Shown piece by piece: positions 17,687 through 32,136 of a stretch of DNA of 64,000 bases (the first letter of the stretch is position 1; every line of letters starts with the position of its first letter). The stretch is taken from assembly GCA_958295525.1 (NCBI GenBank), contig OY282355.1:1551504-1615503 (forward strand), in the 5' to 3' direction. Made by a program: the position numbers and the translations under genes. Origin of the DNA: an uncultured Dehalococcoidia bacterium (GTDB lineage Bacteria > Chloroflexota > Dehalococcoidia > Lucifugimonadales > Australimonadaceae). Under the pieces are notes generated by a model, which did no database searches, was not told the DNA's origin, and worked only from the letters and a program-made list of their open reading frames with translations.

Positions 17687-17797
17687 TCACGGCGCGGGCG
17701 GGGGAGGGGGGAGGGGGAGGGGGTTGCCGACCGCCACGCTAATGAGGTGCAGGCGCAGTTCGCTTTGGCCGGAGGGAGTCATTGAGTTGATGGTCAC
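17687..17797 (-). CDS. Possible 36-residue small ORF coupled to the pentapeptide/FRG gene
   Basis: A GTG start overlaps the stop of the pentapeptide/FRG gene as GTGA (17794-17797), the same arrangement seen at rbfA/truB in this window. The frame encodes 36 residues (begins MTINSMTPSGQSELRLHLIS) and ends in a proline-rich stretch before TGA at 17687-17689. The first two thirds have protein-like composition; the Pro tail comes from a G-rich purine tract. It could be a small partner, or a decayed remnant of a longer gene. I do not recognise it. Confidence 0.25.
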   Translation of the reverse strand: MTINSMTPSGQSELRLHLISVAVGNPLPLPPPPPAP

Positions 17798-19371
17798 TCC
17801 TGAGAGGCCTCTCCTGTGCGTGCCCTATCTGCGTACTCTTGGTTGACCGCCTGCGCCGATTCTACGAGTCCAGGGAACAGCCTTTCACGAGTGAAACCCA
17901 AATTCTTGAGTGTCTTCAGCAAACCAGGCTTTCGCTCGTCAGGCACTGTTAAGGTATAATGGCGATAGAGGTCGATTTTTGGAGTCGAGCCTGATGGGTT
18001 TACTTCTTCGGGCTCGAAACGTAGGTGGCGCGCAGAGACAATGTATGCTGATTCTTGCGCCCTAATACGCTGGGATGAATGCTGTGGTTCCACGATAAAG
18101 ACTCGACGAAGGTCGTCTTTATTTATTCTGTCCTCAAAGTACGGCTTCTCAATTTGAATTAATTGGATAAGCCGGTAACGTGCGTTCTTCTCTTTCTCTG
18201 TATCTGGCCCTTCTAAAATTGCATCTTGGTCATCGCGGCGCAATCTGAAGAAGTTAGAGATGATGCTGATCGCGTCGCTGTCGTACTGCTTGATCAGCCT
18301 TCCAGGCACAGCGAACACATGCACGCGGCCATCCGGGGATACATTCACATGTTCCCGTTCTCGGACATCTAGCATAGATTTCTCGTTGCTCTCGCATGCG
18401 AAGAAGAGAGCGACGAGAGAATTCCGTGTAATGTCAAGGAGCCTGGTGTGCAAGCCATGGTGCTGAGCGATACCCCATTGAGTGATTGCCGGGAGCCTGT
18501 CGGCAAACTCTTCAGGACGCCGCGACATCAAGTCTCGGAGCATTTCGCTCTCGTGGTTAACTAGGCTGTCTTTGCGCGCCACGGAGGGCATCAAACTATC
18601 GTAGATGCAAGGTTCGCCGCGGAAGTACAACCGCATAGATTGCTCTTGGTTGAGGATATAATTTTCTATAGTATTGATTTCGCTTAGCAAGGTTTCGACT
18701 TCCGTTATAGGTTTGGTGATGTTGGCGGCTATGCGCACAGAGTCTGCGATGATGAAACGGGCTTTGTCGTCAAGAATCGCGTTGGTGAAGGTCGCGTTGG
18801 TGAGGTCTGCGTTGGTGAGGTCTGCGTTGGTGAGGTCTGCGTTGGTGAGGTCTGCGCCAGTGAGGTCTGCTTCGGCGAGGTCTGCTTCGGCGAGGTTAGC
18901 GCCGATGAGGTTGGCGCTGGTGAGGTTCGCGCTGGTAAGGTTCGCATCAGCAAGGATGACACCGGGGAGGTCGGCGCTAGTGAGGTCGGCGCCAGTGAGG
19001 TCGGCGCCAGTGAGGTAGGCGCCATTGAGGTCGGCGCCATTGAAGTAGGCGCCATTGAGGTCGGCGCCATTGAGGTCGGCGCCATTGAGGTCGGCGCCAT
19101 TGAGGTCGGCGCCATTGAGGTTGGCGCCAGAGAGGTTGGCGCCAGAGAGGTTGGCATCGGTGAGGTTGGCGCCAGAGAGGTTGGCGCCAGAGAGGTTGGC
19201 ATCGGTGAGGTTGGCGCCAGAGAGGTTGGCGCCAGAGAGGTTGGCGCCAGAGAGGTCGACGCCAGAGAGGTCGGCGCCAGAGAGGTCCGGCACGAAGTCA
19301 TCCTGCAGCCGTCGGGCGTTCCAAGCCTCCACGCCCTCCTGCAGCCATTCTATGTGCTGTTCGTTAGCCAT
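17794..19371 (-). CDS. Pentapeptide-repeat protein fused to an FRG domain
   Basis: This 525-residue protein has three parts. Residues 1-28 form a short helical start (EQHIEWLQEGVEAWNARRL). Residues 29-198 are about 34 uninterrupted pentapeptides of the A(D/N)LxG type, expected to fold as a right-handed quadrilateral beta-helix. A linker follows, then an FRG domain at about residues 245-400. The FRG hallmarks are YFRGE (250-253), QHHGLHTRLLDITRN (303-317) and ALFFACE. FRG domains (PF08867) have no firmly established activity but recur beside mobile and defence genes. The C-terminal ~120 residues are not recognised. The gene lies 8 bp downstream of the methyltransferase-HNH gene. Its non-repeat part is AT-richer than the surroundings, suggesting acquisition. 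A role as a restriction or abortive-infection effector is inference only. Confidence 0.88.
   Translation of the reverse strand: MANEQHIEWLQEGVEAWNARRLQDDFVPDLSGADLSGVDLSGANLSGANLSGANLTDANLSGANLSGANLTDANLSGANLSGANLNGADLNGADLNGADLNGADLNGAYFNGADLNGAYLTGADLTGADLTSADLPGVILADANLTSANLTSANLIGANLAEADLAEADLTGADLTNADLTNADLTNADLTNATFTNAILDDKARFIIADSVRIAANITKPITEVETLLSEINTIENYILNQEQSMRLYFRGEPCIYDSLMPSVARKDSLVNHESEMLRDLMSRRPEEFADRLPAITQWGIAQHHGLHTRLLDITRNSLVALFFACESNEKSMLDVREREHVNVSPDGRVHVFAVPGRLIKQYDSDAISIISNFFRLRRDDQDAILEGPDTEKEKNARYRLIQLIQIEKPYFEDRINKDDLRRVFIVEPQHSSQRIRAQESAYIVSARHLRFEPEEVNPSGSTPKIDLYRHYTLTVPDERKPGLLKTLKNLGFTRERLFPGLVESAQAVNQEYADRARTGEASQE
18778..19287. repeat. In-frame 15-bp tandem repeat encoding the pentapeptide array
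   Basis: About 34 head-to-tail 15-bp units lie inside the pentapeptide/FRG gene. On the plus strand the commonest forms are GGCGCCATTGAGGTC, GGCGCCAGAGAGGTT and GTCTGCGTTGGTGAG. Runs of identical or near-identical units (for example about 19020-19110 and 18800-18860) indicate recent expansion by slippage or recombination, always in frame. Other frames through this region are repetitive too, but only because of the DNA repeat. Confidence 0.93.
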
Positions 19372-19379
19372 GTCGTTCG

Positions 19380-20912
19380 CTACTCGGGGCGGAGTTCGGG
19401 AGGGAGGTACTTGCGCTCGGCGGATCGGATGAACGGAGGGCGTTCCGTCCAGGGCGTTTCGCCTTTCTCCCGCATCCGTGCGTCAAGGTCGGCCATCGTG
19501 CCCTCGCCTTTTATGCTGTTGTGGCTCTGGCACATCAGTTGAATGTTGCCGTCCACGTTCGGGCCGTTGTACCGCTTTTGGGAGACGATATGCTCCGTGT
19601 TGAGGCAGCGAAGGGCGAGTTTCTCGCCGTCGGCGGCGCAGCAGCCCTCCTGCTGGATGTAGCGGATTTCGAGGATATTCGGCGAGCGCGTCTCGCTCTC
19701 TTGGAGTTCGGCGGCTTTTTCAGGACTGAAGTCGGTGCGCTCGGGAATGTCGCCGCCGACGAGTTTCCAGAGGTGGCCTTTGACATCCTCTTTGGCGTAG
19801 CGCAGGACTTTGTGCGTCACCTCGCCGGCGCGCGTGAGCAGCCGCCCGTCCGCGCCACGCTCTGTGACACCGAGTTCGGACTCCATACGCCGGAGCACCA
19901 TCTCGTAGGCAGTGGGGCTGACGTCCACACCGATCCAGAGGCGGGGCGCAGGCAGCAGCGACCATTCGCCGTTCGACTTGAGCGTCGTCATTCCTTCCGC
20001 CGCGACGCAGGCGGTGGCGCAGCCGCAGAAGGGGTCGAGCACGACGTCGCCCGGGTCGGTGGAGATGCTGATAATGCGCTCCAAGAGCGCGCGCGGCTTT
20101 TGGGTCGGGAAGCCCGTCTCTTCCTGCCTCCTCTTGACCAGATGATAAGCGTACAACTGCCTCAGGTCCGACCAGACGTTGGAGAGCGGAACGCCTCTAG
20201 ACTCGTCGAGGTATTGCCGTTCAACGCGGTCGGGCGCTCGTTTGCGCGTGCGGTAGGCGCGCCCGGCCTCATCGGTGTAGGTGAACCGCTCTCTCACGTA
20301 CTTCTCGGAATACCCCAAATGCTGCATATTGTAGGTGTGCTTGCCGTAGGACTTGGCGTAGACCAGCAGCGTGTCGTGCGCTTTGACGGGCTTCCGGCCT
20401 GCGGCGCGTCCGCCGGAGGGCGTGCCGTAGTTCCAGACGACCTCGTCGATAAAGTTGCGATACCCGAAGATGTAGTCCAGCGCGGTCTTAAGGTAGTGGC
20501 TCGCGGTGGGATCGCAGTGGAGGTAGATAGAGCCGGTGTCCTTCAGAACGCGATGCATTTCCACGAGGCGGATGCTCATATAGGCGAGATACGCCTGCAT
20601 AGACTCGTCGTGCGTAATGGCTGCCGCCGTAATGACGTGGCTGAGGGCGGGCTGCTTCCGCTGGAGATCTCTGATCCATTCCCTCCGCACTTTGTCCATC
20701 GTCCAGTCGTCATGGAAGCGCACTTCGCGGTCAAAAGGGTTCTGATATTCGGCGTTGCTGTTGAAGGGCGGGTCGAGGTATATGAGGTCAATGCAGTCGC
20801 TGTTCATTCCCCGGAGCACGTCGAGGTTGTCGGCGGTGAAGATCGTGCTAGGCGCGATGCCTTTGCCGAATATGCGGTCGGTTTCGCTGAGGGTTTCGGT
20901 TGCCGTCGTCAT
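19380..20912 (-). CDS. DNA methyltransferase with C-terminal HNH nuclease domain
   Basis: This 510-residue protein is a beta-class N4/N6 methyltransferase: motif IV in DLIYLDPPFNSNAEY (about residues 42-56) precedes motif I, VVLDPFCGCATACVAAEG (near 295). The predicted target-recognition segment lies between (about 150-270). The C-terminal third adds a zinc-bound HNH nuclease signature around residues 420-475: CC and C ligands before NTEHIVSQKRYNG, then DGNIQLMCQSHNSIKG. One chain could therefore both modify and cut DNA. It is upstream of, and 8 bp from, the pentapeptide/FRG gene. A second methyltransferase-HNH fusion occurs at 56902-58383 with only general similarity. The specificity cannot be predicted. 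Confidence 0.9.
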   Translation of the reverse strand: MTTATETLSETDRIFGKGIAPSTIFTADNLDVLRGMNSDCIDLIYLDPPFNSNAEYQNPFDREVRFHDDWTMDKVRREWIRDLQRKQPALSHVITAAAITHDESMQAYLAYMSIRLVEMHRVLKDTGSIYLHCDPTASHYLKTALDYIFGYRNFIDEVVWNYGTPSGGRAAGRKPVKAHDTLLVYAKSYGKHTYNMQHLGYSEKYVRERFTYTDEAGRAYRTRKRAPDRVERQYLDESRGVPLSNVWSDLRQLYAYHLVKRRQEETGFPTQKPRALLERIISISTDPGDVVLDPFCGCATACVAAEGMTTLKSNGEWSLLPAPRLWIGVDVSPTAYEMVLRRMESELGVTERGADGRLLTRAGEVTHKVLRYAKEDVKGHLWKLVGGDIPERTDFSPEKAAELQESETRSPNILEIRYIQQEGCCAADGEKLALRCLNTEHIVSQKRYNGPNVDGNIQLMCQSHNSIKGEGTMADLDARMREKGETPWTERPPFIRSAERKYLPPELRPE

Positions 20913-21002: not shown

Positions 21003-21833
21003 CTACCGCAGGGCGTAGCGGTCGCCTTCTTCCGAGGCGGCGGCGCCGTCCGCGATCAGTTTGACGAGCGTCGTCACGAGTTGACGCTCCGCGAGCCGCT
21101 CCCGCGCCTCGGGCAAGCCCGCGTAGATGCGAACGCGCAGTTCGGCGGGCGTCAACGGGCCGTCCCGCAGGGCGTCGAGGATTGCGCGCTCCCGCTCCTC
21201 GCGGTGGCGGATGAGCGCCTCGAGGCGGCGCGGCGGGTCGTTCACCGGCCCGCCGTGCCCCGCGTACATAATTCGCGCGTCGACGTCCTGCAGCATCCGC
21301 AGCGTGCTCATATAGTCCGAGAGGTCGCCGTCCTGCGGGGCGATGCTCGTGGTCGAGACGGCCATCACGGTGTCGCTGGTGAAAAGCGCCTTGCGTTCGG
21401 GGGAGAAGAGCGCGATGCATCCGGCGGTGTGCCCCGGCGCGAACACGGCTTCCAGGGAGATTCCGCCGAGGTCGCGCTTGTCGCCGTGCCGCATCTCGCG
21501 GGCGACGGTCATCTCTCCGTGCAGACGCTCTTGCTCTATCGCCTCGCGGTCGTTGGGGTGGCAGGCGATGGGCGCGCCGGTTTCGCGGTGCATATGGAGC
21601 GCGCCGCCGCCGTGGTCGGGGTGCCGGTGGGTGACGATGATCTCGGAAATAGGAGGGGCGTTGACCTCGCGGAGGTAGGCGGCGCGGGCGCGGTGGTCGT
21701 CCTCGCTCTCCCAGCCTGCGTCTATCAGCGCGGCGGACTCGCTTCCGCAAACGAGGAAGGCGTTGGGGGGCGGAAAGCCGGGGAGCGGCTCTCTGCCGAA
21801 CGCGAGTTGGTGTATGCCCGGCTCCAGTTCCAT
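21003..21833 (-). CDS. Metallo-beta-lactamase-fold hydrolase, LACTB2-like
   Basis: This 276-residue enzyme carries the HxHxDH metal motif as THRHPDHGGG, a downstream metal His in APGHTAGCIALF, the bridging Asp in FTSDTVMAV and a final His in YAGHGGPV. The C-terminal ~70 residues form a winged-helix module (ERERAILDALRDGPLTPAEL), the layout of the LACTB2/BLACT_WH group, whose members hydrolyse nucleic acids, thioesters or lactones. ATG 21833 is the first plausible start. It is followed, 52 bp away on the same strand, by no close partner; the GlcG/RidA operon lies just upstream and could be co-transcribed. Confidence 0.9.
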   Translation of the reverse strand: MELEPGIHQLAFGREPLPGFPPPNAFLVCGSESAALIDAGWESEDDHRARAAYLREVNAPPISEIIVTHRHPDHGGGALHMHRETGAPIACHPNDREAIEQERLHGEMTVAREMRHGDKRDLGGISLEAVFAPGHTAGCIALFSPERKALFTSDTVMAVSTTSIAPQDGDLSDYMSTLRMLQDVDARIMYAGHGGPVNDPPRRLEALIRHREERERAILDALRDGPLTPAELRVRIYAGLPEARERLAERQLVTTLVKLIADGAAASEEGDRYALR

Positions 21834-21885: not shown

Positions 21886-23532
21886 CTATAGCGCGGCGAT
21901 GACGTGGTATTGGACGCGGGAGCGGCGCTGGACGCCCATTTTCATTATCTGGCGGGCGGGGCGGTCGTCCGGGTTGGGGAACGCGGCGGCCCAGGCGGCG
22001 TCTATCGCGGGGAGGTCGGCGTAGTCTTGCACGAGCAGCGTGAGCAGGCCGGCGTTTTCCAACCCGCCGCCCGCGGCGCGCAGCAGCGACTCAACGTTGC
22101 GAACGCCGTGGCGCGCCTGCCCCTCGGCGCCTTCGACGGGCTCGAGTTTGTCGTCTCCCGCCGTGTCCACGCCGGAGACGCCCGACGAGCAGACGAGGCC
22201 GCCGATGCGCGCGCCCATAGGAATGGGGTCGTGATGGCCATGCCCCTCGATCTCGTGGTTGGCGCGCTCCCCGCCGATCTTGCCGATGACTTGCATCTGA
22301 ATCTGCCCGCCCATCGGGTAGCGGAACGTCTTGCGCGCCGCCTGATAAGAGCCCTCCGGCCACGCCTCCAGGTAGACGTCCACCATATAGGGCTGGTAGG
22401 CGAAGTCGTTGAGATAGACCCATTGGAGAACCACGTCGTCCGCCGATCCGCCCGCCGCCTCCATCACGGCCCGCATATTGTCGAAGCATTGGTCGGTCTG
22501 CGCGTCCTCGCCGACGACGGGCTGGGAGGTTTCGAGGTCCCAGGGGACGATGACGGACGAGAAAACGTAGTCGCCGATGCGAACGGCGTTGGGGAGCGGG
22601 TCGCGGTGCGTGAGGCCGGGGACTTCGACCCGCCGCCGCTCTCCGGCGACGCCGATGGCCTGCAACTGGACGCCTTCGCCCGGGGGCAGCGGGTAGGAGG
22701 TCGTCTTGCGCGCCGGGCGGTTGTCCGCGTCGGGGAACAGTTCCAGCCAGCCGTCGTTGATGTGGGCGCGGAAATCCTGGCTGTCTATGAAGTTCGTGAC
22801 GACGCCGACCTCGTCCATCGAGCGTCCGGCGGCTTCGATCAGCGTTCGCAGGTTGCGCCAGGCGTTGCGGAACTGCGCGGCGGGGTTGCGCGGAATCTCG
22901 CCTGTTTGGAGGTCGACGCCGCGAACGCCGGACGTGAAGAAGAGACCGCCGACCTCCGCGAAGTCGGGCGCGGGCGCGTCCGGCGCGCTGAGGCCTGGCA
23001 GCCGGAACGCTCTGCGTCCGCCGCCGCCGCTCCGCCCCGGAGCGGATCTGAGGGCGGGCGCGGGCCCGCTGCGGAACCGGGGGCGGATGGCGGCGTTGCG
23101 GAGCCGCTCGTCTCCCGCCGGCTTGACCATCGCCTCCGCGCCCGCAGTCGCCAAGCGCTCGTCGCGGTCTTCGTCGCCCGTTCCGCTGACGCCGATACCG
23201 CCGACGACCTGGCTCGCCCGGTGGAGAGTGAGGCCGCCGTGCAGCGTGGTTACGCGGTCGTTGGACCAGTCCGCGACGGCGCGCCCGTCGTGGGCGATCT
23301 GCTGGCGGTACACGGCGGTGTCGCGCCCGATGAACGCGGCGGTGTACGCCTTGCGCTCGGCGTTCCGAACGTCGGTCGCCGACGCGCCGTCCTTGCGGAC
23401 GAGGCAGACGAGTTCGCCGCTTTCGTCCACGACGGCGACCGCGAACGGGCGCTCGCCGGGGCGGGCGGCGGCCATCGCCGCGTCCGCCGCGCGCTCCGCG
23501 TCTTCCAATCCGAGCGATTCGCGGGTGGCCAT
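21886..23532 (-). CDS. GlcG/HbpS-like domain fused to three RidA-like domains
   Basis: This 548-residue protein begins with a GlcG/HbpS (DUF336) domain (residues 1-145; LGLEDAERAADAAMAAA and RVTTLHGGLTLH with VVGGIGVSG). A low-complexity Arg/Gly linker follows. Three RidA/YjgF-type repeats come next, at about 180-300, 305-425 and 425-548 (SGVRGVDLQTGEI, SSVIVPWDLETSQP, SSGVSGVDTAGDD). RidA proteins are homotrimers that hydrolyse reactive imines, so three copies in one chain suggest a pseudo-trimer. Each repeat keeps the substrate-binding Arg (PARKT, AARKT, PARQI). The Glu normally near the end of the fold is Gln or His, so deaminase activity is doubtful. It is the last gene of a three-gene operon, 3 bp after the DUF1330 gene. 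Confidence 0.85.
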   Translation of the reverse strand: MATRESLGLEDAERAADAAMAAARPGERPFAVAVVDESGELVCLVRKDGASATDVRNAERKAYTAAFIGRDTAVYRQQIAHDGRAVADWSNDRVTTLHGGLTLHRASQVVGGIGVSGTGDEDRDERLATAGAEAMVKPAGDERLRNAAIRPRFRSGPAPALRSAPGRSGGGGRRAFRLPGLSAPDAPAPDFAEVGGLFFTSGVRGVDLQTGEIPRNPAAQFRNAWRNLRTLIEAAGRSMDEVGVVTNFIDSQDFRAHINDGWLELFPDADNRPARKTTSYPLPPGEGVQLQAIGVAGERRRVEVPGLTHRDPLPNAVRIGDYVFSSVIVPWDLETSQPVVGEDAQTDQCFDNMRAVMEAAGGSADDVVLQWVYLNDFAYQPYMVDVYLEAWPEGSYQAARKTFRYPMGGQIQMQVIGKIGGERANHEIEGHGHHDPIPMGARIGGLVCSSGVSGVDTAGDDKLEPVEGAEGQARHGVRNVESLLRAAGGGLENAGLLTLLVQDYADLPAIDAAWAAAFPNPDDRPARQIMKMGVQRRSRVQYHVIAAL

Positions 23533-23535
23533 CGG

Positions 23536-23826
23536 CTACGCCGTTCCCTCGACGGCGACGACGGATGCTTCGGCGGACGCCCACCGGACGCCCACGATGC
23601 TCTGATAGCCGTCGGATGCGTACCAGTTCCGCAGCGCGGCGATGTCCGGGAACTCCAGGACGACGACGCGGCGCGGCGTCCATTCGCCTTCGATGACTTC
23701 GCTCGCGCCGCCGCGAACGAGAAATCGTCCGCCGTAGGGCTCGAGCGTCGCGGGAACCTGCGCGCCGTAGGCGGCGTAGGCGTCCGGGTCGCGCACGTCG
23801 ACGTCGGCGATGAGATAGGCCGCCAT
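23536..23826 (-). CDS. DUF1330 (dimeric alpha/beta barrel) protein
   Basis: This 96-residue protein has the ferredoxin-like DUF1330 pattern: YLIADVDVRDPDAYAAYGAQ, then GGRFLVRGG, VVVLEFPDIAALRNWYAS and DGYQSIVGVR. The family is of unknown function but common in marine and soil bacteria next to catabolic genes. Its ATG shares one base with the TGA of the upstream GlcG gene (TGATG) and its stop is 3 bp before the GlcG-RidA gene, so the three form one translationally linked operon. Confidence 0.88.
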   Translation of the reverse strand: MAAYLIADVDVRDPDAYAAYGAQVPATLEPYGGRFLVRGGASEVIEGEWTPRRVVVLEFPDIAALRNWYASDGYQSIVGVRWASAEASVVAVEGTA

Positions 23827-24257
23827 CAGCGCGCCCCCGCCGCTTCGACGCCCATCGCTTCGAGTCCGGCGCGGGCCAGCGCCTCGTCGCGGATCGTCGA
23901 GTTTCCGCTCATCGCTATGCCTCCTACAACCTCGCCGCCGGAGCGGACGGCCAGCCCGCCTTGCAGCGCCGTGAGTTTGGGGTCGCCCCAATCGTCGAGC
24001 GTCCGCCCCGCCGCTTTGACGGCCTCGTCGCGGAAGGCGACGGTGTCCATTCCGACGCGGGCGGCGGTGTAGGCTTTCGCCCGAGCGCGCCCCAGCATGC
24101 GGGCGGGCGCGCCGTCTTGCCGGGCGCACAGAATCTCGACGCCGTGCGCGTCCACGATTGCGAGCGCGCCGGGGTTGTCGGCGGACGTGAAGGCGGCGAA
24201 GACGGCGTTCTTCGCCCGCCGCGCCTCCTCCAGCCCGATGCTGATCGTCTCGAACAT
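23826..24257 (-). CDS. GlcG/HbpS family (DUF336) protein
   Basis: This 143-residue protein matches the GlcG/HbpS family throughout: SIGLEEARRAKNAVFAAF, ALAIVDAHGVEILCARQDG, LTALQGGLAVRSGGEVVGGI, and IRDEALARAGLEAMG at the end. Family members bind haem or small ligands; some are secreted, but no signal peptide is visible. ATG 24257 was chosen because homology begins there; the frame upstream is not protein-like. It heads the operon with DUF1330 and the GlcG-RidA fusion, and is itself related to the N-terminal domain of that fusion. Confidence 0.9.
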   Translation of the reverse strand: MFETISIGLEEARRAKNAVFAAFTSADNPGALAIVDAHGVEILCARQDGAPARMLGRARAKAYTAARVGMDTVAFRDEAVKAAGRTLDDWGDPKLTALQGGLAVRSGGEVVGGIAMSGNSTIRDEALARAGLEAMGVEAAGAR

Positions 24258-24649: not shown

Positions 24650-26257
24650 ATGAAGAGCGAATTCCTTATCGCCGTTACACAACTCGCGGCTGAGCGGAAC
24701 CTGCCGCAGGATATGGTGGTTTCCGCCGTGGAGGCCGCGCTCGCTTCCGCATACCGCAGAGACACCCCCTCGGGCGGCCAGACGAACGTGCGCGTCCGCC
24801 TCGACCCCGGCACCGGCGAGGTCGAGGTCTACGAGATCAAGACGGTCGTCGAGGAGGTCACGGACGACCTCGTCGAGATCGCGCTCGCGGACGCCAAGCG
24901 GCACGCGAACGGCGTCCCCCTCGGCGTCGGCGCGACGGTGGAGTTTCCGATGCCCGCGCACGCGGCGGGCCGCATCGCCGCGCAGACGGCCAAGCAGGTC
25001 GTGTTTCAGCGCCTGCGCGAGGCGGAGCGCGAACTGGTCTACGCGGAGTTCGCGGAGAAGTCGGGAGAGGTCTACACGGCCACGGTGCAACGGGGATTCG
25101 GCGCGCTCACGGTCGACTTGAACGGCCGCGCGACCGCCGTGCTCCCGTCGGAGGAGCAGTCGCCGACCGAGCGCTACCGGCCCGGGATGAAGATGAAGGT
25201 CATCATCACCGAGGTGAACCGCACCCAGAAAGGGCCGGAGATCATCGTCTCCCGAACGCACCCGGACTTGCTGCGGCGGCTGTTCGAGATGGAGGTGCCG
25301 GAGATCTACAACGGCATCGTGGAGATACGCGGCATCGCGCGGGAGCCAGGCTCGCGCTCCAAAGTCGCGGTGCACGCCAGGCAGGACGGCGTCGACCCGG
25401 TGGGGGCGTGCGTCGGGCTGCGCGGCATCCGCATTCAGAACATCGTCAACGAACTGCAGGGCGAGAAGATCGACGTCATCCAATGGTCGCGCGATATGGC
25501 GGTGTTCGCCTCGCACGCGCTCAGCCCGGCGCAGCCGCTGCGCGTCGACCTGCGCGAGGCGGAGCAGGCCGCCATCGTCATCGTCCCCGACCGCCAGTTG
25601 TCGCTCGCTATCGGGCGCGAAGGCCAGAACGCGCGGCTCGCGGCGCGGCTGACGAACTGGAAGATCGACATCAAGAGTTCGACCGAAATCGAGATCGAAC
25701 GGATGAAGGTGCAGATAGAGGGCGCGGTCGCCGAGCGCGAGTCAGCGGAGGCGGTCGAGGTTCCGGAGCCCGCCGCCGCGGAAGAGACGGCGGAAGAGGC
25801 GGCGGCCCGCGCCGCAGCCGCGGCGGCGGAAGAAGCCGCGATTATGGCGGAACTGGAGGCGGAGCAGGCGGCGGCCGCGGCGGAAGCCGACGACGAGCAA
25901 GAGGCCGAAGCCCCGGAGCCAAGCGCCGCGCTGAGCGCCGAGGAACTGCTCGCGCTCGAGTCGCTCAACGACCTCGCCGGAGAAGGCGAGGAGATCGTCG
26001 TCGAGGAGACGGTGGAAGGCGACCTCTTCGAGCAGGACGCTTGGCAGGCGCCGACGCCCGTCGGAGGCGGCGGAGCCATACGTTTCGCGGAGGACATCCT
26101 CGGGTCGCCGCAAGGCCCGCGTCGGGGCGGCGCGCGGCGGCGAGGCGGCGGCGGCGCGCGCCGGCTGGGCCCGCCGAACCGGGGCGGCGGACGCCCCGCT
26201 CCCCGCCCTGGAAACGCTCCTCGCGGAGGGGGCGGAGGCGGAGGGAACAGCGCCTAG
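24650..26257 (+). CDS. nusA: Transcription elongation/termination factor NusA
   Basis: This 535-residue NusA binds RNA polymerase and RNA to control pausing, termination and antitermination. An N-terminal RNAP-binding domain (residues 1-130; LPQDMVVSAVEAALASAYRR) is followed by S1 (about 135-200; GEVYTATVQRGFGALTVDL), then KH1 and KH2 (about 230-345; VGACVGLRGIRIQNIVNEL and LSLAIGREGQNARLAARLTN). After that comes a 90-residue Ala/Glu-rich acidic region and an Arg/Gly-rich tail from about 490. No AR2-type acidic repeats as in E. coli are seen; the RG tail might bind RNA. It is first in the order nusA-ylxR-infB-rbfA-truB; rimP, usually upstream, is absent. Confidence 0.96.
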   Translation: MKSEFLIAVTQLAAERNLPQDMVVSAVEAALASAYRRDTPSGGQTNVRVRLDPGTGEVEVYEIKTVVEEVTDDLVEIALADAKRHANGVPLGVGATVEFPMPAHAAGRIAAQTAKQVVFQRLREAERELVYAEFAEKSGEVYTATVQRGFGALTVDLNGRATAVLPSEEQSPTERYRPGMKMKVIITEVNRTQKGPEIIVSRTHPDLLRRLFEMEVPEIYNGIVEIRGIAREPGSRSKVAVHARQDGVDPVGACVGLRGIRIQNIVNELQGEKIDVIQWSRDMAVFASHALSPAQPLRVDLREAEQAAIVIVPDRQLSLAIGREGQNARLAARLTNWKIDIKSSTEIEIERMKVQIEGAVAERESAEAVEVPEPAAAEETAEEAAARAAAAAAEEAAIMAELEAEQAAAAAEADDEQEAEAPEPSAALSAEELLALESLNDLAGEGEEIVVEETVEGDLFEQDAWQAPTPVGGGGAIRFAEDILGSPQGPRRGGARRRGGGGARRLGPPNRGGGRPAPRPGNAPRGGGGGGGNSA

Positions 26258-26278
26258 CCTGCGCGGAGGAGACGATAG

Positions 26279-26566
26279 ATGCCGAACCGCAGCGCGCCGC
26301 AGCGCTCCTGCGTGAGTTGCGGCCTCAAGGCCGATAAGCGCGGCCTCATCCGCGTTGTGCGGACGCCTGAAGGCGAGTGCGCGGCGGACGAGTCAGGGAA
26401 GCGCGCGGGGCGCGGCGCCTATGTCTGCCGCCGCCCGGGGTGCTTGGGCGGCGCGCTGCGCTCAGGGCGCCTCTCCCGCGCGTTGCGCGGCGAGATCGGA
26501 GACGATGACCGCGAGCGGCTGGCCGCGCTCGCGGAGCGCTTGCGAACCGCGAGCGCAGTGGGATAG
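26279..26566 (+). CDS. ylxR: YlxR/RnpM RNA-binding protein
   Basis: This 95-residue protein has the DUF448 pattern: RSCVSCGLKADKRGLIRVVR, then GRGAYVCRRPGCLGGA, with a basic surface typical of this small nucleic-acid-binding fold. In Bacillus the homologue YlxR (RnpM) binds and modulates RNase P. It sits between nusA and infB, its usual place; the start follows a purine-rich GGAGGAGACG. Confidence 0.93.
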   Translation: MPNRSAPQRSCVSCGLKADKRGLIRVVRTPEGECAADESGKRAGRGAYVCRRPGCLGGALRSGRLSRALRGEIGDDDRERLAALAERLRTASAVG

Positions 26567-26574
26567 GAGGGCCG

Positions 26575-28359
26575 ATGACCGAACAAACGCCAGGAGCCGC
26601 CGCGACCGCAACGCGGAGAGTGACGCTGCGCGCCCTCCCCATCGGGGAGGCCGTCGCCGTCGGGACGCTCGCGGAACGGATGCGGGTGGAGCCGGTTCAG
26701 GTCATCAAGCAGTTGATGCGCGCCGGAGTGTTCGCCAGCATCAACCAGATCGTTGACTTCGAAACGGCGGCGGGAGTCGCCCGCGCGTTCGGCTACGCCG
26801 CCCGCAAAGTCGAGGACGCGGCGAGCGCCGCCGGAAGCGTGGCCGAGGACGAGTCCGCCGATCTGGAGACGCGCCCGCCGGTGGTGACCGTGCTGGGGCA
26901 CGTCGACCACGGCAAGACGACGCTGCTGGACGCGGTGCGCCGCACGAACGTCGTGGCGAAAGAGGCCGGCGGCATCACGCAGCACATCGGCGCGTATCAG
27001 GTGGCGCATAACGGCGCGCCCATCACGTTCATAGACACGCCGGGCCACGAGGCGTTCACGGCGATGCGGGCGCGCGGCGCCCAGGTCACCGACATCGCCG
27101 TCCTCGTCGTCGCCGCCGACGACGGCGTGATGCCCCAGACCGTGGAGGCGATAGACCACATCAAGGCCGCCGACGTGCCGATCATCGTGGCCATCAACAA
27201 GATGGACTCGCCGAACGCCGACCCGGAGCGCGTCCGCCGCCAGTTGTCCGAGCACGAATTCGTCGTGGAGAAGTGGGGCGGCGACGTGGTCGACGTGGAG
27301 GTCTCCGCGAAGCAAGGCGAAGGCATAGACGCGCTGCTGGAGAGCATCGAACTCGTCGCGGAGATCGCGGAACTGAAAGCCAACCCGCGCCGCGCCGGGG
27401 TCGGCGTCATCGTCGAGGCGGAACTCGACCGCACCCGGGGCGCGCTGGCGCGGGCGCTCGTGCAAACGGGGTCGCTGAAGGTCGGCGATCACGTCGTCGC
27501 AGGCGTCGCGCGCGGGCGCGTGAAGGCGCTGGTCAACGAGGAGGGCAAGCGCGTCCAGAGCGCCGGGCCGTCCACCCCCGTGGAGATCTTGGGGCTCGCC
27601 GGCCTGCCGGAGGCGGGCGACCGCCTGGTCGTCGTGGCGGACGAAAGGGCCGCCCGCGCCGCAGTCGCCGAGCGTATGCGGCGCGACGACCTGAACCGCT
27701 CGCGGGGCACGACGCTCGAGGAAATGGGCGCGCGCATATCCTCCGGCAAAGCGAAGGAACTGCGGATCATCCTCAAAACGGACGTGCAAGGGAGCGTCGC
27801 CGCCGTCAAGCGCGCGCTGGAGCAGTTGAGCGCTCCGCAGGCGCAAGTGCGCCTCATCCACACGGGAACGGGGGCGGTCACGGAGACCGACGTGCTGCTC
27901 GCCGTCGCGTCGGAGGCGATCATTATCGGATTCAACGTCCGCCCCGATCAGGGAGCGCAGCGCCTCGCCGATCAGGACAACGTTCAGGTGCGCCTCTACA
28001 ACATCATCTACCGGCTGACGGAGGACGTTGAGAAAGCGCTGCATGGCTTGCTGGAGCCCGTTGTGGAGGACGTTACGGAGGGCTCGGCGGAGGTTCGCGC
28101 CGTGTTCTCGCTGGGGCGGAACCGCAAGAGCGCGGGCTGCTACGTGACGGACGGGCGCATCGCGCGCGGCGCGCGCGGGCGCGTGCTGCGCGGCGGAGCG
28201 GAGATCTTCGACGGGCCAATCGGCGGGCTGCGCCGTTTCAAGGACGACGTGCGGGAGGTCGCCTCCGGCTACGAATGCGGCGTTTCCCTGGACGGTTTCA
28301 ACGACTTCCGAGAGGGCGACGTCATCCAGGCGCACCGGCAGCGGACGACGGGCGCGTAG
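26575..28359 (+). CDS. infB: Translation initiation factor IF-2
   Basis: This 594-residue GTPase delivers fMet-tRNA to the 30S subunit. A short N-terminal domain with an IF2_N motif ([20 protein letters not shown]) leads directly to the G domain: G1 [10 protein letters not shown] near residue 108, G2-region [11 protein letters not shown]3 DTPGHEAF, G4 NKMD. Domains II, III and C ([19 protein letters not shown]) follow. The long variable N-terminal extension of proteobacterial IF-2 is missing, as in other compact bacterial IF-2. The gene starts 8 bp after ylxR and ends 15 bp before rbfA. Confidence 0.97.
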
Positions 28360-28374
28360 CCTGCGGAGCGGCGT

Positions 28375-28725
28375 ATGGGCCGGAGAAGCGACCGCGTCGC
28401 GGGACTGCTGCAGCGCGAAATCGGCTGGCTCGCGTCGGCGCGGCTGAAAGACCCGCGCCTTGCGCGGATGGTCACGCTCGCCCGCGTCGAAGTCAGCGAC
28501 GACCTCTCCGTCGCCACGGTCGCGGTCACCGTCGGAGGAACGGATGAAGACGCGGAGGATGCGCTGCGAGGGCTGCGCTCCGCCGCCGGGTACGTCAAAC
28601 GCGAGTTGGGGCGGCGCCTCGACCTGAAGCGCGCGCCCGACCTGCGGTTCGTGCTGGACGCTTCCATCGCCCAGGGCGACCGCGTCCTCGGCCTGCTGGA
28701 CAGCATAAAAGAGGAGGAAGCGTGA
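28375..28725 (+). CDS. rbfA: Ribosome-binding factor A
   Basis: This 116-residue KH-fold protein helps 16S rRNA maturation and 30S assembly. Conserved features are RVAGLLQREIGWL at the start, LARVEVSDDLSVATVAVTV in the middle and LRFVLDASIAQGDRVLGLLD near the end. It lies 15 bp after infB, and its stop overlaps the GTG start of truB (GTGA), indicating coupled translation. Confidence 0.95.
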   Translation: MGRRSDRVAGLLQREIGWLASARLKDPRLARMVTLARVEVSDDLSVATVAVTVGGTDEDAEDALRGLRSAAGYVKRELGRRLDLKRAPDLRFVLDASIAQGDRVLGLLDSIKEEEA

Positions 28726-29654
28726 GCGAGCGGCCCGAGGCGCACGGCGTCATCGTCGTCAACAAGCCCCGCGAAATCACGTCTATGGACGCGGTGCGGG
28801 CGGTGCGGCGCGTCACCCGCGTGAAGCGCGTCGGCCACGCCGGAACGCTCGACCCCATCGCGGAGGGCGTGCTTCCGGTCTGCCTCGGGCAGGCCACCCG
28901 CTATATGGACTACCTCGTGGACAGCGGCAAGACCTACCTCGGCGAAATCACGTTCGGAACCGCGACCGACACCTACGACGCGTCCGGATCGGAGACGGCG
29001 TCCGGCGATCCGGCGGCCCTCTCCCGCGAGCGAATTGAGGCGCAACTGCCCGCGTTCTCCGGCGTCGTGATGCAGCGTCCCCCGATGTACTCCGCCGTGA
29101 AGCACGAGGGGAAGCGTCTCTACGACCTCGCCCGAGCAGGCGTGGAGGTGGAGCGCGAGCCCCGCGAGGTGGTCGTCCATCGCATCGCGCTCCGCGAGTG
29201 GAGCCCGCCGAAGGCGGCGATAGAGGTGGATTGCGGCAAAGGCTTCTATATGCGGGGGCTTGCCCACGACCTCGGCGCGGCTGTCGGCTGCCCCGCGCAC
29301 CTCAGCGCGCTGACCCGCTCCCGCGTCGGGCCTTTCACGCTCGACGACGCGATCACGCCCGCCGAACTGGAGGCGGAGGAGGACTGGGAAGCGCGGCTCG
29401 AGCCGCCCGACGCCGCGCTCCGGCGGATGGATGCGCTGCTCCTCCCTCCGGCGGCGGAGCGCCACGTTCGCAACGGGCAGGCCGTAACGCTGCCCGCGAT
29501 GGCTCCCTACGCGAAGCATTTGGAAGTCCGCCGCGCCTACGCCGAGGGCGGACGCTTCCTCGGCGTCGTCCGCTTCAACCGCGCCGAATCTTCCTGGCAG
29601 CCGGAGAAGATGCTGGCGAGGCCCATCGTCTCGCGCTACGCCCCCGAGGGCTAG
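28722..29654 (+). CDS. truB: tRNA pseudouridine(55) synthase
   Basis: TruB makes pseudouridine 55 in the T-loop of tRNAs. The 310-residue protein has the catalytic Asp in GHAGTLDPIAEGVLPV, the binding motif MYSAVKHEGKRLYDLAR, and the family motif GKGFYMRGLAHDLG, plus a C-terminal PUA-like region (ERHVRNGQAVTL). It starts with GTG at 28722, overlapping the rbfA stop. It is the last gene of the nusA operon and converges on hisIE. Confidence 0.96.
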   Translation: MSERPEAHGVIVVNKPREITSMDAVRAVRRVTRVKRVGHAGTLDPIAEGVLPVCLGQATRYMDYLVDSGKTYLGEITFGTATDTYDASGSETASGDPAALSRERIEAQLPAFSGVVMQRPPMYSAVKHEGKRLYDLARAGVEVEREPREVVVHRIALREWSPPKAAIEVDCGKGFYMRGLAHDLGAAVGCPAHLSALTRSRVGPFTLDDAITPAELEAEEDWEARLEPPDAALRRMDALLLPPAAERHVRNGQAVTLPAMAPYAKHLEVRRAYAEGGRFLGVVRFNRAESSWQPEKMLARPIVSRYAPEG

Positions 29655-29699: not shown

Positions 29700-30332
29700 T
29701 CAGCCGCGCCGGTTCCGCAACTCCGCCCAGACGTCCTCCGGCGAGAGGCCGGCGTCGGCGAGCAGCACGAGCGCGTGATAGAAGAGGTCGGCGACCTCGC
29801 CGGGGAGGCTCGCCGTCTCTTTCGTGGCGGCGGCGAGCGCGACTTCGGCGCCCTCTTCGGCGACTTTCTGCGCGATGCGGGTCGTTCCGCTCTCGAACAG
29901 CGCGGTCGTGTAACTGCCCGCAGGCGCCTCCGCCTGCCGTTGCCGGATGACCTGGAAGATTTCGCTGAGCACGCCGGGGCCGGACGAGGCGCGCTCGTAT
30001 TCCGGCGATTCGGGGAGCGGCGTGAAGAAACAGGATCGCTCTCCCGTGTGGCAGGCGGGGCCGTCCGCCCGCACGTTGAAGAGCAGCGCGTCGCCGTCGC
30101 AGTCCACCGCTGCGGATGAGACGCGGAGGAACGCGCCGGACGTTTCGCCCTTGCGCCACAACGCTTGGCGCGAGCGACTGTAGAAGTGCATTTCGCCCGA
30201 CTCCAGCGTGCGCGCGAGCGCCTCCGGGTTCATATAGGCGACCATCAGCGTCTCGCCGGTGGCGTCGTCCTGGCAGATCGCCGTAACGAGGCCCTGCGCG
30301 TCCAACTTGATGCGCGCGTTTTCCGCGGTCAT
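29700..30332 (-). CDS. hisIE: Bifunctional phosphoribosyl-AMP cyclohydrolase/phosphoribosyl-ATP pyrophosphatase
   Basis: This 210-residue enzyme catalyses steps 2 and 3 of histidine synthesis. The N-terminal HisI domain (1-115) has MVAYMNPEALARTLESGEMH, FYSRSRQALWRKGETSG and metal ligands DCDGDALLF and CHTGERSCFF. The C-terminal HisE domain (about 120-205) has the MazG-like EEGAEVALAA and EVADLFYHALVLL. It ends the hisF-HAD-hisIE unit, 31 bp after the HAD gene, in the order expected for a partial his operon; the remaining his genes are not in the window. Confidence 0.95.
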   Translation of the reverse strand: MTAENARIKLDAQGLVTAICQDDATGETLMVAYMNPEALARTLESGEMHFYSRSRQALWRKGETSGAFLRVSSAAVDCDGDALLFNVRADGPACHTGERSCFFTPLPESPEYERASSGPGVLSEIFQVIRQRQAEAPAGSYTTALFESGTTRIAQKVAEEGAEVALAAATKETASLPGEVADLFYHALVLLADAGLSPEDVWAELRNRRG

Positions 30333-30363
30333 AATGCCTGCCTCCCAATTTGCGCGGCGGGGT

Positions 30364-31128
30364 TCATTCGAAAAGCGCGGGAATCTCGGTCAGTTCCCGC
30401 ACGGCGTAGTCCGGAGGCAGCAGGGCGGCGCCGGAGGGCGGGGGCGTGCGCCCCGGCGTCGTTTGATCGCGCTGCACGAGCGCGGCTTGCATGCCCGCGA
30501 GTTTCGCGCCGTGCGCGTCGTCGTAAGGCGAGTCGCCCACGTACAGCACGGCCTCCGGGGGCAGGCCGGCGCTTTGCAGAAAGCGGACGAAGATGCGCGG
30601 GTCGGGCTTGTAGGCGCGCGCCTCCTCCGACGATACGACGCGCGAGAATTCCCAGTTGTTGCGGGCGATCGTTCCGTAGAGGAAGCGGTCGTCGGCGTTG
30701 GAGAGCACGGCGAGCGGGCGCATCGCTCCGAGCGCGTCCAGCGCCTCTTGCGCCTCGGGGAAAGCGTCCCGCGAGGCGAGCGCGTCCACGCAGCGCGACG
30801 CCGCGGCTTCGGCGTCGCCCGCAATTTTCATCTCGGCGAACGTCTCCGTGAAGGCGTCGCGCCACGCTTCCCAATACGACCGGAACGGCGGGCTCGCGGC
30901 GGGGTTCGCCATATTCGTGCGCGTCTTGCGGAATTCGACGTCGTAGCGGCTCCAGACGGCCCAGAATTCGCCCGGGTCCACAGGCATCTCCTGCTCGCGA
31001 ACGACTTCCTCCATCGTTGGCCGCCAGTCGTCGGTTCCGTTCCGCGCGAGCGTGCCGAACATATCGAAGGCGATGAGTTCCACGCGGTCGAGGTTGCCCA
31101 TAGCGCTCCTTTGGCCGTTCGCGGTCAT
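30364..31128 (-). CDS. HAD-superfamily hydrolase, haloacid-dehalogenase-like
   Basis: This 254-residue protein has HAD motif I FDMFGTL, motif II LSNADDR, motif III Lys in [10 protein letters not shown], and motif [13 protein letters not shown]. In motif I the second Asp of DxD phosphatases is Phe, a pattern closer to L-2-haloacid dehalogenases (DxYGT) than to phosphatases. The gene overlaps hisF by ATGA (31125-31128) and precedes hisIE, so it is part of the his transcription unit. The operon position suggests histidinol-phosphate phosphatase, but the motif argues against it. Confidence 0.85.
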
Positions 31129-31958
31129 TCGCGGACGGGAATGCCTTCCGCCCGGAACGCGCGCTTCGCGTCGGCGATGGAGCGCCGCCCGTAGTGAAAT
31201 ATGGATGCGGCGAGCGCGGCGTCGGCGCGCCCTTCCGTGACCGCCTGCGCGAGGTGCGCGACGCCGCCCGCCCCGCCGCTGGCGATGACGGGCACGGGCA
31301 CGGCGTCCGCCACTGCGCGCGTGAGTTCGAGATCATAGCCGTCCTGATGGCCGTCGGCGTCCATGCTGGTCAGCAGAACCTCGCCCGCGCCGAGTTCGGC
31401 GGCGTAGACGGCCCAGCGAACGGCGTCCATTCCGGTGGGCGTTCGGCCTCCGTGGACGAACACCTCCCATCGAGAGCCCGGGCCAAGCGCGAGATCGCCC
31501 TTGCCCGGGTGGCCGCCGGGCAGAAGCGCGGGGTCCGCTTGCGGCGCGTCCGGCGCGGCGCGGCGGGCGTCTATGGCGATGACGAGGCACTGGCCGCCGA
31601 ACGCCGCCGCCGCCGCCGCGAACGCATCGGGGTTCAGCGCCGCCGCCGTGTTCATCGAGACTTTGTCCGCGCCGGCGTTGAGCAGTTTGCGGACGTCCTC
31701 CGCGCCGCGGACGCCGCCGCCGACGGTGAGAGGAATGAACACTTCCTCCGAGACGCGCTCCACGACGTCGATGATCGTGCCGCGCCCGTCGGAACTGGCC
31801 GTGATGTCGAGGAACACGAGTTCGTCCGCGCCCTCGCGGTCGTAGAAGGCGGCGAGTTCCACCGGGTCGCCCGCGTCGCGGAGGTTGACGAACGACGCGC
31901 CCTTGACGACGCGCCCGCCCGCAACGTCGAGGCACGGAATGATGCGCTTGGTGAGCAT
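31125..31958 (-). CDS. hisF: Imidazole glycerol phosphate synthase cyclase subunit HisF
   Basis: This (beta/alpha)8-barrel forms imidazole-glycerol phosphate and AICAR with HisH-supplied ammonia. The first catalytic Asp is in [15 protein letters not shown], and the second in [10 protein letters not shown]. Phosphate-binding loops are [15 protein letters not shown] and [14 protein letters not shown]. The ATG at 31958 is preferred over an in-frame GTG at 31967. A 15-20-residue insertion ([20 protein letters not shown]) after the second Asp is longer than usual. The 277-residue gene overlaps the HAD gene start by ATGA. The divergent EutA-like gene lies 178 bp away. Confidence 0.95.
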
Positions 31959-32136
31959 AGCCGTCACAGGATACCGGACGAGCGCATCGGGCGGCGCGCC
32001 GCGCTCGGCGGCGACCTGTCACGCTTCTGCGCCGTCCGCCCCTTGCGCGTTTCCGCCCGTCACGCCTACGATGATTCCCGCGTTCGGCGCCGCGCCGCGC
32101 ATCCCCAATCCCCCCAGCGAAAGGAACCCCGAACCT

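Follow-up and report, generated by a model that had tools for sequence, protein, structure and literature searches.

Domain organization of the fusion gene

One gene in a 64,000-nucleotide stretch of DNA, the window, from an uncultured Dehalococcoidia bacterium places a GlcG/HbpS-like domain on the same polypeptide as three RidA-like (Rid) domains. The gene is a single open reading frame on the minus strand (21886-23532) with an ATG start and codes for 548 amino acids. As an earlier note on this DNA had proposed, its product carries one GlcG domain followed by three Rid domains. In a Pfam search, PF03928 (HbpS-like) matched residues 8-132 (23137..23511; 91.1 bits against a cut-off of 25, E 7.7e-26) and PF01042 matched three stretches (102.9 bits against a cut-off of 27.3, E 1.5e-29). 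The Rid repeats span residues 173-296 (22645..23016), 298-415 (22288..22641) and 423-548 (21889..22266), and a linker of about 34 residues (137-170; 23023..23124), predicted to be disordered, separates them from the GlcG domain. The best NCBIfam matches of the repeats, RutC and TIGR00004, both fall below their own cut-offs. Each repeat resembles the single-domain RutC/RidA deaminases, from which the window protein differs in its tandem layout and divergent pockets.

The N-terminal domain belongs to the EfgA/HbpS/GlcG family and matches the solved HbpS (3fpv) and EfgA (6bws) by sequence, the match to 6bws (E 5.3e-11) indicating family-level similarity only. EfgA and HbpS are described as stand-alone sensors, whereas the GlcG domain of the window is fused to Rid. 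The source genome has four PF03928 matches and ten PF01042 matches, three of the latter in the fusion protein and seven elsewhere. It also encodes a second multi-Rid protein, which is degenerate and 391 amino acids long (L006 658-1830, contig position about 278195).

The fusion gene is the third in a tight operon, glcG - DUF1330 - glcG:rid3, in which genes one and two overlap and a gap of a few bases precedes the third. The neighbours named in the earlier note, a free GlcG protein and DUF1330, are indeed present directly upstream on the minus strand. The free glcG (23826..24257; PF03928 E 1.8e-21) codes for 143 amino acids, with a longer frame from 24347 possible, and belongs to the same family as the fused domain; the DUF1330 gene (23536..23826; PF07045 E 1.3e-33) codes for 96. 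A DUF1330 gene also lies less than about 1.5 kb from GlcG, on the opposite strand, in two of 18 loci with GlcG only (L205 5885-7902 and L211 6901-8295).

The fusion in related genomes

We looked for the fusion in 59 genomes. Besides the window's own genome, a full-length fusion of 549-550 amino acids is encoded in G002-G005, from the same genus, and in G008 and G013 of genus g4. These proteins are 68-80% identical to the window protein over the whole chain, and their genes also have DUF1330 and the free glcG upstream. In G001, again of the window's genus, the fusion is cut by a contig end. Genera g5 (G009, G014) and g2 (G006, G015) encode the same parts as adjacent genes, glcG and a 380-amino-acid rid3. 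The free glcG is kept upstream of the fusion in relatives. DUF1330 lies between both glcG parts in genera g1 and g4 and was not found at that spot in g2 and g5. The GlcG tree unites the fused copies in a single group (93/88), so the fusion in the window family probably arose once. A second, larger fusion is found outside the class in G287, where one chain of 695 amino acids has the order GlcG-GlcG-Rid-Rid-Rid.

The separate glcG and rid3 genes of g2 and g5 would fit a reading in which an assembly error or frameshift had joined two genes in the window, a possibility that the earlier note had raised against itself. The same fusion in six other genomes, from two genera and separate assemblies, and the grouping of the fused copies on the GlcG tree rule this out for practical purposes.

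Origin of the Rid repeats

In the domain tree, repeats 1, 2 and 3 of the window family each group with their counterparts of the same number in L070, G262 and G287 (99/99, 100/99 and 98/93, respectively). The three repeats therefore go back to one old tripling. The earlier tree came with a warning of long branches meeting; the later domain tree agrees with it on the repeat groupings.

A second triple Rid has a separate origin, its own three repeats grouping together (99/84 in one tree and 96/90 in another for L053/L072). It is encoded at L053 9603-10844, L072 5989-7131 and L172 8714-9856, L072 and L172 being the same sequence region. This protein has the Arg in all repeats and is encoded without GlcG; epimerase and amidohydrolase genes flank it in the three loci examined.

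Genus g13 arranges its repeats differently. G058 and G170 each carry three different double-Rid genes, and G021, G171 and G172 each pair one double with one quadruple gene, giving six repeats in all five genomes (loci L054, L055 and L169-L171). These sets adjoin GlcG, and Arg105 is lost in the repeats that were read. The first repeats group together (100/93), as do the second repeats (94/86, unstarred), the pattern that tripling of a double-Rid gene would leave. At the gene level, a stacked heterotrimer would be expected to show the same pattern. Because the Arg is missing from its readable repeats, this double-Rid branch probably does not work as a classical imine deaminase. We considered and rejected G014 (L058) as a further partition, with two plus one repeats making three. 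In the tree, the single Rid of this locus falls with repeat 1 of the third double protein and the double Rid falls with the second, so that the locus resembles the 2+2+2 set in incomplete form.

Predicted structure of the Rid repeats

The Rid part (378 residues) was modelled by AlphaFold2 with 15 aligned sequences, giving a mean pLDDT of 93.9 and a pTM of 0.93. The full-length model had a pTM of 0.69 with a pLDDT below 50 in the linker, and the position of GlcG is not fixed by it. We compared the Rid model with known structures using Foldseek and VIA-align. Chorismatases ranked first, with 4bps, 5a3k and 5ag3 matched along the whole Rid chain across all three repeats (Foldseek E 6.7e-12; one rigid superposition with Z 23.5, 285 aligned residues and rmsd 3.5). 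The FBXO22 FIST domain came next (Z 13.7), then single RidA chains (Z about 12); superposition on the Toblerone enzyme 5hy4 was weak (Z 10.5, rmsd 5.4). Given the confident model and the superposition of all three repeats on a chorismatase, there is good support, as a prediction, for repeats that pack into a single pseudo-trimer, a covalent trimer unit.

The self-contained pseudo-trimer suggested in the earlier note thus has the backing of the predicted fold, and the idea itself is already in print. Niehaus 2015 (PMC4433059) names 3x-RidA proteins, with three tandem Rid domains in one chain as here, and presumes them to be covalently linked trimer units. GlcG is mentioned nowhere in the main text of that paper, and the window protein stands apart in its pockets, which are very unequal, and in the Gln that its repeats carry in place of Glu120. 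Joined Rid trimers are hence already known, and the partnership with GlcG looks like the new part.

Chorismatases and cyanuric acid hydrolases are known single-chain relatives, and the matches raise the possibility that the fusion protein is an enzyme of one of these kinds acting on a cyclic substrate. The single-chain fold of the FkbO/Hyg5 chorismatases is the best match to the whole three-repeat part, and the weak match to 5hy4 points the same way. However, identity to these chorismatases is 14-16% without a sequence-profile match, and no chorismatase appears among the sequence matches at E 0.001. Their catalytic Glu is probably Gln in the window protein: counted by a plain offset from where the aligned chain ends, Glu334 of Hyg5 would fall on Gln541, and changing this Glu to Gln is reported to have stopped product formation in Nat-hyg5. 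The Toblerone fold of AtzD/barbiturase, proposed to have arisen from three joined YjgF units (PMC3758960), has Ser-Lys chemistry and belongs to another family. PF09663, the AtzD/barbiturase family, had no match in the fusion protein at E 0.01, and we rejected an AtzD identity on this ground; a genome-wide search also gave no match, but its controls were silent too. A chorismatase-like or cyanuric acid hydrolase-like activity is accordingly a long shot.

Pocket residues of the three repeats

According to the TdcF paper, seven residues form the pocket (Tyr17, Gly31, Asn56, Asn88, Arg105, Pro114 and Glu120), in which Glu120 forms a bond with residue 107 on the other side of the interface and Asn88 sets the orientation of Arg105. 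The Arg corresponding to Arg105 of E. coli RidA (the RPAR/AARKT Arg) is present in all three repeats of the window protein as R275, R400 and R527, as the earlier note had read it. That note also had Gln or His in place of the Glu. Gln does occupy position 120 in every repeat (Q289, Q412 and Q541); the His does not, as H543 of repeat 3 aligns with position 122. Position 88 is Asn in repeat 1, where position 107 is Thr, Val in repeat 2 and Asp in repeat 3.

These positions were compared across 13 family proteins, the window protein included, with terminal gaps in two partial rows. Arg is found in 13 of 13 proteins in each repeat. At position 88, repeat 1 has Asn and repeat 2 has Val in all 13, and repeat 3 has Asp in 12 of 13. 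Position 120 is Glu in ten of the 13 copies of repeat 1, and Gln in all 13 copies of repeat 2 and in all 12 readable copies of repeat 3. Repeat 2 departs from the RidA hallmark set at all four of positions 31, 88, 114 and 120 and is the best conserved, with 79 of 121 columns invariant over 11 rows versus 61 of 120 and 48 of 127 for the other two. In the divergent L070 and G262 the Arg is kept in repeats 1 and 2 and replaced by Leu or His in repeat 3; G287 likewise keeps it in repeats 1 and 2. With these three included, Asn88 is retained in repeat 1, and repeat 2 has Val or Ile. We infer from these residues that the three pockets are unequal, became specialised differently and stayed so.

The Gln at position 120 is shared with the nearest single-domain Rids, where it is found in 51 of 54 domains, those of 66 loci that passed a length and score filter for residue counts. 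The change from Glu to Gln is therefore probably older than the tripling and gives no ground to exclude the repeats from PF01042. Since these single Rids were found by patterns that include RPAR, their Arg (54 of 54) is no evidence. The earlier note took the loss of Glu as a sign of changed chemistry. That reason does not support it, Gln being the norm in the nearest single-domain Rids and alanine at the Glu120 and Tyr17 positions reportedly having little effect on S. enterica RidA (Niehaus 2015, PMC4433059). The lasting inequality of the three pockets is another argument that can still be made for it. Gln at 120 speaks against membership in the archetypal RidA subfamily.

GlcG accompanies concatenated Rids

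GlcG is encoded beside concatenated Rids in the window family, L070, G262, G287, G718 and genus g13, with 22 loci listed. The Rids so linked come as 3, 2+2+2 or 2+4 repeats. GlcG was near none of the single-domain Rids (0 of 66 loci; flanks up to 6 kb, some shorter), and no Rid lay within about 7 kb of other GlcGs (0 of 18 loci, a hand-picked subset of lower-scoring GlcG search matches). Concatenated Rids without GlcG are found at L053, L172, L056 and L058. The partner GlcGs form one group on the tree (92/99, unstarred), a test that predates the finding of G262, G287 and G718. The gap in score between partner and other GlcGs is partly circular because the partners built the search profile. A search of the open-access PMC literature found no paper on a GlcG-Rid partnership. 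The partnership appears to be undescribed; it recurs in related bacteria, sometimes beside Rieske oxygenase genes. To our knowledge, no fusion of the GlcG/HbpS/EfgA family to Rid is known.

The protein could also be an ordinary 3x-RidA with a housekeeping role in removing reactive imines, to which an incidental GlcG neighbour was fused by chance. That 3x-RidA is already known, that Arg105 is present in all three window repeats, that the genome has its seven further PF01042 matches and that the surroundings of the operon are otherwise housekeeping in family f1 (hisF-HAD-hisIE, accC-accB and uvrA) would all fit. Yet GlcG goes with differently built Rid assemblies and is fused to them at two points of the tree, the pairing is absent from all 66 single-Rid and all 18 other GlcG loci, and repeat 2 is off the hallmark set. 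We consider this reading rather unlikely, though it deserves the most weight among the alternatives.

Less probable is a non-catalytic sensor or scaffold, with a pocketless pseudo-trimer like the FBXO22 FIST domain joined to a ligand sensor of the HbpS/EfgA type. FIST superposes on the Rid part and is described as having no obvious pocket, EfgA of the same PF03928 family is reported to sense formaldehyde, and the related double-Rid proteins have lost the Arg. Against a sensor, the Arg of repeats 1 and 2 is kept in all family members examined, and a chorismatase, an enzyme, is a far better structural match. In addition, the neighbour clusters common to at least three groups, where identified, are biosynthetic or repair genes with no regulator among them.

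Rieske genes and a possible function

An open reading frame with a Rieske domain lies within 6 kb in 12 of 22 loci with GlcG and multi-Rid and in 18 of 66 single-Rid loci; none does so in four multi-Rid loci without GlcG or in 18 GlcG-only loci. Of the 12 positives, six come from a single small Rieske gene that lies in synteny beyond accC-accB in family f1, and these are therefore not independent. Within 6 kb of the operon there is no Rieske gene in the five loci of the window and its genus, and none at L070, G287 and G171 (some flanks short) or on the short contigs of G393 and G409. A Rieske gene is in the same gene run as GlcG and Rid in G058, G170, G262 and G718. The order in G262 is Rieske - glcG - rid3, and G718 (L231, G718:C66, 7022-11904) has three glcG, three double-Rid and three Rieske genes of 103-113 amino acids in a row, then ABC importer genes. 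Among the 18 single-Rid loci with Rieske, the gene is at most 500 bases away in nine, three of them on the same strand, and PF19301 (LigXa_C) was matched by every one of the seven single-Rid neighbours tested. G170 has a second GlcG, away from any Rid, that adjoins a LigXa-type Rieske gene. As half of the positives are one synteny and the window, its genus, L070, G287 and G171 have no Rieske gene within 6 kb, any pathway proposed for the window protein is assigned by analogy.

Our best guess is that the fusion protein serves as a hydrolase core that handles what an oxidative catabolic pathway produces. It would act as a hydrolase or deaminase on a small carboxylate held by the arginines of repeats 1 and 2. 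The carboxylate would arise in a catabolic (oxidative) pathway, which in several relatives LigXa-type Rieske oxygenases or small Rieske proteins may serve. The role of the GlcG partner would be to keep a linked small ligand, such as an aldehyde, heme or the substrate itself, close to the Rid core, and the tripling may have let the three pockets specialise separately. Taken together, a 3x-Rid pseudo-trimer with three non-equivalent inter-repeat pockets, a flexibly linked ligand-binding GlcG domain and a putative catabolic hydrolase or deaminase function has, in our estimate, an even chance of being right. Within this picture the domain make-up, the conserved fusion and the age and order of the repeats are established, the fold is predicted and the function is putative.

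More tentatively, GlcG and concatenated Rid might form an undescribed catabolic complex of several proteins in Chloroflexota. Its three-fold core would be built from a 3x protein, from three paralogous double-Rid proteins as a stacked heterotrimer or from a 2x plus a 4x protein, with GlcG as arms and Rieske proteins as partners in some cases. It would act on an unstable oxygenation product, with new chemistry in the versions that lack the Arg. We hold this broader proposal, taken as a whole, to be possible but doubtful.

Covalent Rid trimers are a natural case in which the three equal pockets of a homotrimer were freed to diverge, and the related genomes show graded forms (separate, partly fused and fully fused; 3, 2+2+2 and 2+4). 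Through this recurrent partnership the function of GlcG/HbpS proteins may become easier to approach. The source bacterium belongs to the SAR202 group, whose members are regarded as oxidisers of resistant organic matter, and the Rieske link points to specific pathways that could be tried in them.

Genomic surroundings of the operon

The his and acc genes beside the operon were considered as functional partners and read as stable synteny in family f1. In relatives hisIE-HAD-hisF adjoin the operon. In the window they lie at 29703-31967, separated from it by plus-strand genes (24650-29654) that read by eye as nusA-infB-rbfA-truB, which is a local rearrangement. In a plasmid search, none of 78 matching records covered 80% of the triple at one place. 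Downstream of the operon on the minus strand is a gene for an MBL-fold hydrolase (21003..21833; PF00753). We considered it as a partner and rejected it, since it is not conserved, with only 28% matches near the operon in relatives, and it is probably outside the GlcG-Rid system. At 17794-20912 we noted by eye a pentapeptide-repeat protein that includes an FRG-like part and, adjoining it, a DNA methyltransferase whose tail is HNH-like; the two may be a restriction or defence pair.
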